This document shows positions 37,884 through 43,848 of a stretch of DNA of 44,056 nucleotides, in pieces. Positions within the stretch are counted from its first letter, which is position 1. Each line of letters begins with the position of its first letter. The stretch spans positions 1 through 44,056 of the forward strand of contig CAMAPJ010000013.1 in the NCBI GenBank assembly GCA_945860085.1, written 5' to 3'. The notes beneath the pieces are model-generated. The model did no database searches. It was not told where the DNA came from and worked only from the letters and a program-made list of their open reading frames with translations. Origin of the DNA: Synechococcus sp. UW140 (GTDB taxonomy: Bacteria; Cyanobacteriota; Cyanobacteriia; PCC-6307; Cyanobiaceae). A program made the translations under genes and the position numbers.

Positions 37884-38155
37884 GGGCGCAGGGGAGGGTC
37901 TAGCAGATCTGAGAGGCCCGCCCATGCCGAAACCCCCCAGGCCCAACGCATCAAGGCATAGCCTGGATCACCCTGAGCTTCACCACCAGCAGCCGTATAC
38001 CCTACTTATGGAGAAAGGGTGAGTGGAAATACTTGATAAACGACAGGGGTTATAAATAAACTTTTGAAAGAAATCAATGATTTGAAAGTAATTCGAAATC
38101 TATAATGAGACAAGCGGGTTTGGATTGAATAAATTTACTCAAGTTCAGGGTGGCG
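37884..38155. other. Gap between uvrA and the IS element
   Basis: About 270 bases without a credible gene. The first 110 bases resemble the GC-rich core; from about 37990 the sequence turns AT-rich. No terminator with T-run is obvious after uvrA. Confidence 0.5.
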
Positions 38156-38251
38156 TGGACCCTATAAACTGAACCAATGCTTATGAGAGCTTCCCCACCA
38201 GCCAGACTTGGCAAGGAGAAGCCTCGATGAAAGCCAAACGCCACAGCCCCG

Positions 38252-38277
38252 TAGCCGAAGGCTTCTCCGCAGGAGTA
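38252..38277 (+). repeat. Mini double-hairpin element, family I, copy A
   Basis: Structure: outer GTA/TAC; hairpin GCC(GAA)GGC at 38254-38262; spacer TT; hairpin CTCC(GCA)GGAG at 38265-38275. It interrupts orfA between the codons for HSP and VQII, adding 24 bases in frame with a repeated GTA at both edges, so the transposase frame stays open across it. Confidence 0.75.
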
Positions 38278-38408
38278 CAGATCATCCGCAAGTTGCGCAC
38301 CGCTGAGCAGCTTTTGAGCCAGGGCCAGGCCGTCGCTGACGTCTGCCGAGCCCTGGAGGTATCCCCAGCGACTTATCACCGCTGGCAGCAGCTGTACGGG
38401 GGAATGTA

Positions 38409-38433
38409 GACGAAGTCGGCCGGAGGCCATGAG
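38409..38433 (+). repeat. Mini double-hairpin element, family II, copy F
   Basis: Two adjacent hairpins without spacer: GAC(GAA)GTC at 38409-38417 and GGCC(GGA)GGCC at 38418-38428, followed by ATGAG. It directly follows the orfA segment YGGM. A copy in the opposite orientation lies at 39293-39315. Confidence 0.72.
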
Positions 38434-38457
38434 CTAGTGAGGCATAACGCCTCTAGC
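38433..38457 (+). repeat. Single hairpin insertion G inside orfA remnant
   Basis: Arms GCTA + GAGGC (38433-38443, with a 2-nt bulge) pair with GCCTC + TAGC (38449-38457) around the loop ATAAC. It is sandwiched between elements F and B, sharing the TAG at its right edge with B, which suggests nested or adjacent insertion. Confidence 0.5.
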
Positions 38458-38480
38458 CGTAAGGATTCTCCGAAGGAGTA
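38454..38480 (+). repeat. Mini double-hairpin element, family I, copy B
   Basis: Outer CTA (38453-38455) and TAG (38479-38481); first hairpin weaker, CC(GTAA)GG at 38457-38464; spacer TT at 38466-38467; second hairpin CTCC(GAA)GGAG at 38468-38478. It ends directly before GAG-CTG of the orfA zipper region and contributes in-frame stops. Confidence 0.72.
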
Positions 38481-38550
38481 GGAGCTGGAACAGGAGAACA
38501 GCCGGCTAAAGCGGTTACTCGCTGATGCAGAGCTCGACAAGGCCATGCTC

Positions 38551-38576
38551 TAGCCGCAGGCTTCTGCGAAGCAGTA
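38551..38576 (+). repeat. Mini double-hairpin element, family I, copy C
   Basis: Outer CTA/TAG; hairpin GCC(GCA)GGC at 38553-38561; spacer TT; hairpin CTGC(GAA)GCAG at 38564-38574. Relative to copies A and B both sides of the second stem changed together (CTCC/GGAG to CTGC/GCAG). Inserted after the orfA segment DKAML. Confidence 0.75.
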
Positions 38577-38585
38577 GGAGCTTGT

Positions 38586-38611
38586 TGCGCCGCTAGGCGC
38601 ACCTGGCGGTG
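38586..38611 (+). repeat. Double-hairpin insertion E near orfA end
   Basis: TGCGCC(GCTA)GGCGCA at 38586-38601 is followed by a second short stem CC(TGGC)GG, extendable to CACC/GGTG by sharing two bases with the first. Deleting 24 bases here (flanked by TGCG on both sides) restores a normal orfA end, EL-VATGNY-stop. The loops are not GNA, so this is a different family. Confidence 0.55.
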
Positions 38612-38651
38612 CGACGGGAAACTACTGAGCCCGGAGCGTCGTCGCAGGGCC

Positions 38652-39486
38652 GTGATGGTTTTGCAGGATCGATTCCGGGTTTCTCAGCGGCGGGCTAGCC
38701 GTTTAGCGGGCCAGAACCGCAACACACAACGGCGGCCTACGCCTATTGCAGACATCGAGGAAGGGAAGCTGCGCAGCCGGATCAGGGAGCTGGCAAGGCG
38801 CCATGGACGCTGGGGCCGCCGCCTGGTTTACCGCCGGCTGCGGCTCGACGGCTGGAGCGTCAATCACAAGCGGGTACAAAGGATCTGGCGAGAAGAGGGG
38901 CTCCAGCGCGGCGCCTGCCGCGCAAGCGGAAGCGCTCTCGTCCCCCAGGCGGCTCAAGGGAGCTGCTTAGAGCCGAATATCCGCATCACGTGTGGGCGAT
39001 CGACTTCCAGTTCGACCAGACGATGGATGGACGCAGATTGAAATTCCTCAATGTTATCGATGAACTCAGTCGTGCTTGCTTGGCCATTCGTGTCGGCAGG
39101 CGCTGCAAGGCAGAGGATGTGGTTACCACCATTGAGCAACTGCTCAGTCAGCATCCAGCCCCCACCCATCTACGAATGGACAATGGTCCCGAATTCATTG
39201 CCAATGCCCTGCAAGAGTGGTGCATGGGCAATGGATCCGCCACTGCCTATATCCCGCCAGGGTCACCATGGGAGAATCCATTCGTGGAGTCATAAGAGCT
39301 CCGCTCGACTGCGTCGACAATGGTCGCTTAAGGGATGAGTTCTTAAATGTGGAACTGTTTGCATCACTGACTGAGGCCAAGGTGTTGGCAGAACAGCATC
39401 GGATCGAGTACAACGTCTACAGACCGCATTCGGCTCTCCAGGGGCATACGCCCCTGGAAGTCCTCCAGCAATGGAAGGCGGCCTGA
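38652..39486 (+). pseudogene. IS3 orfB (DDE integrase-type transposase), frameshifted
   Basis: OrfB is the catalytic part of the IS3 transposase. The first frame gives RFRVSQRRASRLAGQNRNTQR then RIRELARRHGRWGRRLVYRR (HTH_21 region) up to about 38915. It then shifts (an apparent extra two bases near CAGCGCGGCGCC) to a second frame with HHVWAIDFQFDQTMDGRRLK (first catalytic Asp in AIDF) and THLRMDNGPEFIANALQEW (second Asp in MDNGPEF). GSPWENPFVES is followed by a stop inside hairpin insertion D at 39296-39315. A third frame continues NGRLRDEFLNVELFASLTEA to YNVYRPHSALQGHTPLEVLQQ. All catalytic regions are recognisable, so the decay looks recent. Confidence 0.88.
39293..39315 (-). repeat. Mini double-hairpin element, family II, copy D (inverted)
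   Basis: On the minus strand: GAC(GCA)GTC (39315-39307) then GAGC(GGA)GCTC (39306-39296), followed by TTATGA. It matches copy F in layout and in most bases outside the stems. It splits orfB between the codons for NPFVES and NGRLRDEF, adding about 23 bases and a stop. Confidence 0.72.
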
Positions 39487-39613
39487 TCAACCCACTAGCT
39501 CTCATAAGGACTGAAGCAGCAGAGGGGGTCACGTCAGTATGAAATATGGTTGGAAGTATTTCAATGGAATAAAAATATAATAGGTAATTGATGGTGGCGA
39601 AAGAAGTAGTGGC

Positions 39614-41710: not shown

Positions 41711-42454
41711 ATGGTTTCCAAGGTTATCCCAGCCACTGCTCTGCTATTGAGCCTGGCCCTGCCGGCCGCGGGTCTCGCCAAGCCCAAATATGGTTATTCC
41801 GGTGACATTGCCCCTGAAAAGTGGGGAAAGCTCAGCCCTGATTATGCAGCCTGTTCCATTGGTACAAGTCAAGCCCCCCTAAATATCGTCACGGCGAAAA
41901 CTGTTAAGGATGCCAAGAGCCAAGCCCTAAAGCCTAATTACACTCCTGGCTCCGCCGATGTAATCAATACCGGCACTGGCATTCAAGTTAACCTTAAAGG
42001 TGATCTGAAGATCGGTTCGGCTGATTATAAGTTGTTGCAGTTCCACTTCCATGCCCATGGTGAGGAGGCGATTAATGGAGTTCATTACCCCTTAAATGCC
42101 CACCTAGTCCATGCCAACAGTGCCGGCAACCTTAAGGTGATTGGTGTGAATCTCAAGGTTGGGGCACCGAATGCCTATCTGGAGTCGTTCTGGAGCAAGC
42201 TGCCTGCTAAGAAGGATGGCACTTTGAAGGTTAACCTGCCTTCCCTAGCCGGTTTGCTGCCCAGCTCCCTTGCCTACTTCACCTACATCGGTTCCCTGAC
42301 CACCCCTCCTTGCACTGAGGGCGTTCAGTTCTTCATTCTTAAGGAGCCCGTGACGATTTCGGCCAAGCAACTAGACACCTTCTTGAAACTGTATCCAAAT
42401 AACGCCCGTCCTGTTCAGCCTTTGAATGGACGTGTGATTAAATCCAGCAACTGA
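41711..42454 (+). CDS. Alpha-class carbonic anhydrase, exported
   Basis: Carbonic anhydrases interconvert CO2 and bicarbonate; alpha-class enzymes of cyanobacteria (EcaA-like) are periplasmic or extracellular. A Sec signal peptide (VIPATALLLSLALPAAGLA, about residues 5-23) precedes KYGYSGDIAPEKWG. Zinc ligands are H112 and H114 in LQFHFHAHGEE and H131 in NAHLVHAN; a disulfide between C48 and C201 is likely. The conserved GSLTTPPCTEG is intact. Oddly, the proton-shuttle His (His64 of human CA II) is replaced: NTGTGIQV has Thr89 there. The residue matching Glu117 is Asn129. The gene is followed by a strong terminator. Confidence 0.92.
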   Translation: MVSKVIPATALLLSLALPAAGLAKPKYGYSGDIAPEKWGKLSPDYAACSIGTSQAPLNIVTAKTVKDAKSQALKPNYTPGSADVINTGTGIQVNLKGDLKIGSADYKLLQFHFHAHGEEAINGVHYPLNAHLVHANSAGNLKVIGVNLKVGAPNAYLESFWSKLPAKKDGTLKVNLPSLAGLLPSSLAYFTYIGSLTTPPCTEGVQFFILKEPVTISAKQLDTFLKLYPNNARPVQPLNGRVIKSSN

Positions 42455-43101: not shown

Positions 43102-43848
43102 TCAGATCACCGTCACTTTGCCAGTGCCGATGTCGAAATAGGCCGATTTGATCGATACCTTACCGCTGGCCTGGGCCTTCTTGAGCACTTCGCTGCGTTG
43201 GCTGAGCGTAGCGGTGGCATAGAGGGCATTGCCCTGAATGGCTTTGGTGAGATCGTCGCCTGGCTTAAGGGAGGCCCGGATCGGTTTCACCAAGTCCTCC
43301 AGGAGTGGGGTTAGGGGGTCAGATGCTATCGCTGCCTTGACGGCACCGCAGGCGCTATGGCCCATGACCAGGATTAGCGGCACTTCCAGCACGGCGACGG
43401 CGTACTCCATCGAGGCAATCGCATCGTCAAAGGCCGTATTACCGGCGCCGCGTACCTGGAAGAGTTCGCCGGAACCGGCAGCAAAGATCCATTCCGGGGC
43501 CACCCGGGCGTCGGCGCAGCTCAGCAGGGCGGCCCAGGGCTTCTGGCCTTCGGCTAAGGCGGCTGGGTTGATCTGACACCCAGCAGTAAAGATCGACTTA
43601 GTCAACTCCATGCGCTGGCTTGCTGTTGGTGCATTCACCGCTTGCTGCCAGGCCTTGCTGAATTTGCCGTTGCGACGCAACAGTTCCGCTAGGGGGTCAC
43701 TCGGTGGTGAACAGACGGTGAGATCCTTCGTTAGTTTCGAATCCACGGCGCCAGCCGCCTGGGCTGCCCCGCCGCTCAATTTGGGTAGTACAAGCCCACC
43801 AGCAACCAGGCCAGCCGCTTGGAGTATGTGACGCCTAGAAAATGCCAT
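43102..43848 (-). CDS. Beta-class carbonic anhydrase with Tat signal peptide
   Basis: The N-terminus MAFSRRHILQAAGLVAGGLV has the twin-arginine motif SRRxxL and a hydrophobic core ending near AQAAGA, so the protein is likely exported folded through Tat. The catalytic domain has the beta-class zinc residues C111, D113 and R115 in SCADARVAPEW, and H164 and C167 in MGHSACGAVKAAI. Also visible are AALAEGQKPWAALLS before the ligand, FQVRGAGNTAFDDAIASMEYAV between, and a C-terminal helical part. At 248 residues it is close to the usual length plus leader. It is convergent with the alpha-class enzyme across arfB. Confidence 0.93.
   Translation of the reverse strand: MAFSRRHILQAAGLVAGGLVLPKLSGGAAQAAGAVDSKLTKDLTVCSPPSDPLAELLRRNGKFSKAWQQAVNAPTASQRMELTKSIFTAGCQINPAALAEGQKPWAALLSCADARVAPEWIFAAGSGELFQVRGAGNTAFDDAIASMEYAVAVLEVPLILVMGHSACGAVKAAIASDPLTPLLEDLVKPIRASLKPGDDLTKAIQGNALYATATLSQRSEVLKKAQASGKVSIKSAYFDIGTGKVTVI

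Follow-up and report, generated by a model that had tools for sequence, protein, structure and literature searches.

Stacked inserts in an IS3-type element of Synechococcus sp. UW140 point to very small hairpin elements that replace two target bases

The window analysed here, the whole stretch of 44,056 nt at positions 1 to 44,056 (forward strand) of contig CAMAPJ010000013.1 from Synechococcus sp. UW140 (assembly GCA_945860085.1), contains a broken insertion sequence (IS) of the IS3 type (Table 1), whose open pieces match the Pfam domains HTH_Tnp_1, HTH_21, rve and rve_3 and whose ends were set by aligning copies with differing outer flanks. Further along the window, two open reading frames (41711-42454 and 43102-43848) resemble carbonic anhydrases of two types, as judged by eye from their translations. 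OrfA of the IS was compared by alignment with ten further stretches, of which nine are clearly OrfA across the region or a part of it and one (L102) aligns at site A only. A preliminary description of this DNA had read positions 38407-38611 as five hairpin insertions (F, G, B, C and E) stacked almost end to end and to be placed against other IS copies. That comparison yields the targets, a partial order of insertion and four of the five units: compared with the other copies, F, B, C and E are additional DNA, as is A further upstream, and G is ordinary IS sequence. The net gains in length amount to +24 for A, +23 for F, +25 for B, +24 for C, +27 for E and +23 for H, the latter in OrfB. At G, relatives have GAG GCC AAA CGC CTC or near variants and the window has GAGGCATAACGCCTC; since these codons are kept in insert-free copies, the hairpin of G (z -4.19, the best of six tested) is discarded as a chance near-palindrome. 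The edge that G and B were thought to share is merely the junction of B, which abuts normal codons directly, and E, previously delimited as 24 bases between TGCG flanks, is the longer unit of Table 1, the TGCG copies being arms of its hairpins. Nor is OrfA restored simply by deleting the hairpins, as the bases lost at each site need to be counted too. Rfam gave nothing above the gathering score in 38100-39600.

Table 1. The IS3-type element of the window and the units discussed within it
Feature	Coordinates	Strand	Description	Ends or comparison
IS3-type insertion sequence	38151..39536	+	Broken; carries the mini-inserts	Ends TGGCGTGGACCC... and ...GGGGTCACGTCA
Insert A	38252..38277	+	26 nt, double GNA hairpin; open in frame and stop-free (VAEGFSAGV)	Empty CCC-GAG-CAG in L009; filled in own copy L002
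Insert F	38407..38431	+	25 nt for 2 nt; hairpins GAC-GAA-GTC and GGCC-GGA-GGCC	Alignment
Unit G	38439..38453	+	Ordinary OrfA codons, EAKRL in relatives; no insert	Present in insert-free OrfA copies
Insert B	38454..38480	+	27 nt for AA at CTC^AA^GGAG; first loop GTAA	Alignment
Insert C	38551..38576	+	26 nt for AA at CTC^AA^GGAG; two in-frame TAG	Empty CTTAAGGAG in L009
Insert E	38585..38615	+	Second family (TTGCGC-N6-GCGCACC-TNNC-GGTGCGA), 31 nt for 4 nt	Alignment
Insert H	39293..39317	-	25 nt, in OrfB	Absent from L118, L008 and L010

Inserts A, B and C belong to one main family of 26-nt units with the sequence TA-GCC-GNA-GGC-TT-CTSC-GNA-GSAG-T(A/G), in which two 4-bp hairpins with GNA loops are separated by a T, preceded by a T and followed by a T and a purine; in B the first loop is GTAA. 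With up to 3 mismatches allowed, the A/C motif has two matches in the window and none in each of 100 shuffles. A covariance model scored A at 44.6 bits and B with an E value of 2.8e-5, and found 8 matches with E < 0.001 in 437,014 bases of the window and further stretches of the same genome; all 8 are clumped in three places, the window and contigs C8 and C78, and the two contigs had entered the search because matches there were already known. B and H had been missed by our first structural scan, which demanded triloops. F and H follow the same double GNA-hairpin plan with other stems (in H, on the minus strand, CGAC-GCA-GTCG and GAGC-GGA-GCTC as read off the sequence); F is a variant of the main-family plan and H probably another. 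At the site of H, the copy L011 has a diverged insert of equal length. Insert E is a separate family with its own rule of replacement; its site is empty in six IS copies (L118, L132, L010, L153, L025 and L149) and filled in two (L009 and L017), and further E-type copies occur in four genomes (G000, G002, G005 and G034). In G002, a pair of E-type elements whose starts lie 57 bases apart occupies a single IS copy (L017, 478-564). The earlier estimate of at least three kinds of mini-element thus stands in the form of two sequence families, the A/B/C type and E, plus F and H.

The two hairpins are best supported by the way their stems vary. In a search in which, to avoid circularity, neither side of two stem pairs was fixed, in 42 genomes chosen because they have the core, 295 of the 300 free pair cells were Watson-Crick and one more was G-T (manual count over 150 listed rows of 155 hits), compared with about 25% expected for random pairing, the copies not being independent of one another. 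Pairing was broken in 5 of the 150 listed rows, in one of them as G-T. Three pair types occur at one of the free positions and two at the other, and the reversed pattern gave 0 hits. A second pairing analysis, its input partly picked by pairing, was concordant. Folding energy is weak evidence: the values for single elements A, B, C and F lie in the ordinary range (z -0.5 to -1.4), and for C the folding program favours a different hairpin.

The exact core occurs in 68 of 300 genomes of the taxonomic family, in low copy number (at most 8 per genome), and the reversed pattern had no hits in the genomes listed. Among 84,980 species genomes it was found in 70 stretches, all titled cyanobacteria, one of them under the name Microcystis elabens; the named carriers of the main family are picocyanobacteria. 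Viral contigs contained 0 exact-core matches, and a phage origin was set aside on this ground.

At C and B, as the preliminary description had suggested, the AA of a lysine codon is replaced and not duplicated, and this proves general. In a search that left the element ends free, we found 112 elements at 48 independent sites, 35 of them with an empty homologue; a 2-nt gap was seen at 34 of these 35, and after removal of three self-matches (L219, L274 and L299) the empty copy had 2 nt in place of the element's 26 nt at all of the 32 sites left. An earlier set, whose ends were partly forced by the search pattern, gave the same relation for 69 of the 72 elements whose empty homologue was confidently identified. 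The replaced bases were AA at 21 of the 32 sites, AG at 4, AC at 3, AT at 2, TA at 1 and CG at 1, so that A is the first base at 30 sites against a background of 18.2% (binomial p about 1e-20) and AA is replaced at 21 against a background of 3.3%; the TA and CG sites go against the A-first rule. Over the 48 sites, position -2 is a pyrimidine in 41, position -1 is C or G in 44 and position +1 is G in 35, where AA dinucleotides in general show these bases in 47%, 76% and 37% of cases, respectively. The main family therefore inserts at (C/T)(C/G)^AA^G with a net gain of 24 nt and without target-site duplication. F obeys the AA rule with 25 nt for 2 in two unrelated transposases of this genome, and H would obey it if read on the minus strand. 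Filled sites often look like TA-22 nt-TA (TA on the left at 36 of 48 and on the right at 26 of 48), as expected if ordinary transposition had duplicated a 2-bp TA target. MITEs and ISs are recognised by a direct repeat of which the empty site has one copy; here the empty site is TA in 1 of 32 cases and mostly AA, so the TA...TA appearance is not a target duplication and such transposition is extremely improbable. Nor is the second target base simply retained to the right of the element, as AA targets give TA or TG.

The same spots were hit repeatedly. OrfA site C (ATGCTC^AAGGAG) is filled by five elements that differ from one another, one being of 24 nt, in the window, L118, L132, L153 and L025, and is empty in L009, L010, L017 and L149; L009 is 95% identical to the window around this site. 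In a Mutator-type transposase, elements lie at CTC^AA^GGAG in three copies (L035, L214 and L030) and, with the register shifted by one base, at CTCA^AG^GAG in two others (L103 and L294). In this sense, the landing pad proposed in the preliminary description is supported, and the Mutator-type transposase L035 of the same genome, unrelated to the IS, is a second one: inside it (1200-1620), a span of about 260 bases holds F, an element of the C type and one of the E type in antisense, 24 letters of F recurring there after ATG and in place of AA. Some copies at one site may share a single event, given that copies are clumped in IS-rich stretches. True nesting, also suggested earlier, was not seen in the window and is found elsewhere, in L105 and L162, where one element lies within the loop (GAA) of another and has likewise taken the place of AA.

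Three IS copies with different outer flanks allow a partial order of insertion, taking the empty state as ancestral. A copy in a sister species (L009, genome G002) has F, B and E and lacks A and C, and the second copy of the Synechococcus genome itself (L002, contig C40), which stops shortly past B, contains A, F and B. F and B, and E by way of L009, would then precede A, because L009 has them without A; A would precede the separation of the two copies of this genome, which have it in common; and C is seen, among the three, in the window copy only. The end of L002 falls a few bases from insert B, as though the copy had broken at the element. The different outer flanks imply that the IS changed place later than the hits, presumably with the help of an intact transposase acting in trans. 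These shared inserts also bear on the idea that there were few real insertions, that old inserts were spread with ISs and by gene conversion and that the elements are now immobile relics. The clustering of copies (112 elements at 48 sites) and the presence of F and B in the window, L002 and L009 at different genomic places agree with it. Nevertheless, the 48 sites are distinct, elements also reside in non-transposase genes, differing element sequences occupy one site amid empty copies, two registers lie one base apart in the Mutator-type transposase, and filled and empty copies are 95-96% alike, all of which makes immobile relics unlikely. We consider it very probable that picocyanobacteria harbour non-autonomous mobile elements of very small size, of which the inserts are copies, the main 26-nt family replacing two bases of its target.

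What the elements do to genes was assessed at 49 sites, with one chosen frame per site. Transposases or integrases were matched at 15 sites (two of them below the Pfam cut-off), other genes at 7 sites above the cut-off (DUF3427 twice, AbrB-like, DUF4351, ResIII/HsdR, HNH_2 and DUF1651) and 2 below it, and nothing at 25. In two DUF3427 genes (L165 and L120), the element is antisense, in frame and stop-free. In L109 (2015-2040) and in L142 (minus strand), the element puts two TAG codons in frame into a cyAbrB-like regulator gene whose downstream part can still be recognised; we dropped read-through as an argument here, since cyAbrB-like genes are multi-copy. Inserts that are skipped in translation are known as byps in mitochondria. 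A comparable function within the gene, either by such skipping or as in-frame peptide inserts like the Rickettsia palindromic elements, would suit the 26-nt class, which preserves the frame (+24), the stop-free reading in DUF3427 and HsdR-like genes, and the cyAbrB-like gene of two genomes. We regard it as very unlikely all the same, as F, B and H shift the frame, removal of 24 nt still leaves a TAG at phase-0 sites, and one of the multi-copy cyAbrB-like genes may be dying.

Where Pfam placed a gene (22 sites), the elements are sense to it at 18, whereas the target motifs in coding-like ORFs are divided into 689 sense and 577 antisense (54% sense, n=1266), an excess with p 0.007. In this small sample, the excess may hint at a part played by transcription or RNA, because selection against stops would act in the opposite way. 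Insertion of a small hairpin RNA and its copying by reverse transcriptase is the route suggested for the small dispersed repeats (SDRs) of cyanobacteria. Besides the sense excess, right ends that resemble G-T wobbles (TG in 13 of 48) would fit such a route, which nonetheless seems improbable, given that the reverse transcriptase domain RVT_1 was found in only 10 of 42 carrier genomes and is absent from G098, a genome in one contig with 5 copies of the element. A Y1 HUH transposase that moves hairpins in single-stranded form, as in REP/RAYT or IS200/IS605 systems, could be read from the conserved feet of the hairpins and from GTAG at some element edges. Y1_Tnp is found in only 3 of the 42 carriers, though, and is absent from this genome, from all 7 carriers among the first 60 relatives and from G098; moreover, two target bases are lost, which is not the known outcome of IS608 movement, so that we give this possibility very little credence. 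The Resolvase-fold recombinase looked for as a sign of IS607-like serine recombinases occurs in 20 of the 42 carriers and is also missing from G098. Y1, reverse transcriptase and resolvase are thus not supported as required in-genome mobilisers, none being present in all 42 carriers.

For the small mobile elements that we favour, the following course is proposed. One strand of the unit can form two adjacent mini-hairpins with GNA loops; the target would be cut with a two-base stagger and lose those bases, and a copied hairpin unit would then be joined in their place by a factor acting in trans or by the replication and repair functions of the host, two sources favoured because no tested enzyme class is present in all carriers. 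A bolder and tentative version, possible in our opinion and clearly less secure than mobility itself, is that double GNA-hairpin units of 22-27 nt are exchanged for AA in a manner unlike that of known transposases, perhaps via single-stranded DNA or RNA copies on the coding strand and with host functions only.

By their described features, SDRs would be the nearest known kind. Elhai et al. are said to have reported them in 2008 in Genome Res from Nostoc punctiforme and relatives, a study to which PMC4390886 and PMC3733652 refer. They are dispersed repeats of 21-27 nt in eight families, with hairpins that show compensatory changes, nested insertions and a mobility inferred by comparison. The main family resembles them in its 26 nt and dispersal (48 independent sites, 68 of 300 genomes), in its hairpins with compensatory changes (295 of 300 cells in the listed rows), in the mobility indicated by 32 empty sites and in the nested insertions of L105 and L162; it comes from another cyanobacterial lineage, and the likeness lies in these described features. 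REP and GTAG-tagged repeats are linked to Y1-type RAYT proteins. The latter association sets them apart from our elements, with Y1 in 3 of 42 carriers. They are otherwise similar as hairpin repeats, of 20-40 bp and from cyanobacteria among others according to PMC3733652. The target of the main family differs from that of SDR5, which PMC4390886 places within HIP1, between its third and fourth bases, and not in exchange for AA. Mitochondrial double-hairpin elements and GC clusters are likewise short, mobile-looking hairpin units devoid of their own enzyme, although, in PMC4478555, GC42 has 42 nt and the GC clusters are flanked by AG or ACT direct repeats like target-site duplications, in contrast with the 26-nt picocyanobacterial unit, which lacks duplication. 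Rickettsia palindromic elements, also inserted inside protein genes and often in frame, belong to other bacteria, measure about 150 bp and are presented in the excerpt of PMC10969869 with no description of a two-base replacement. The literature searched, which did not include the original SDR study, contained no earlier description of such elements in picocyanobacteria.

Through these inserts, transposase genes and others acquire in-frame stops and frame shifts that can be taken for sequencing errors, which calls for care in annotation. For the question of how repeats of about 25 bases can move at all, this family supplies dozens of filled and empty pairs. Its sharp target motif and strict replacement rule make it possible to reject candidate mechanisms by sequence alone, as is largely the case for TA duplication, and the mechanisms can be tested in culturable picocyanobacteria.
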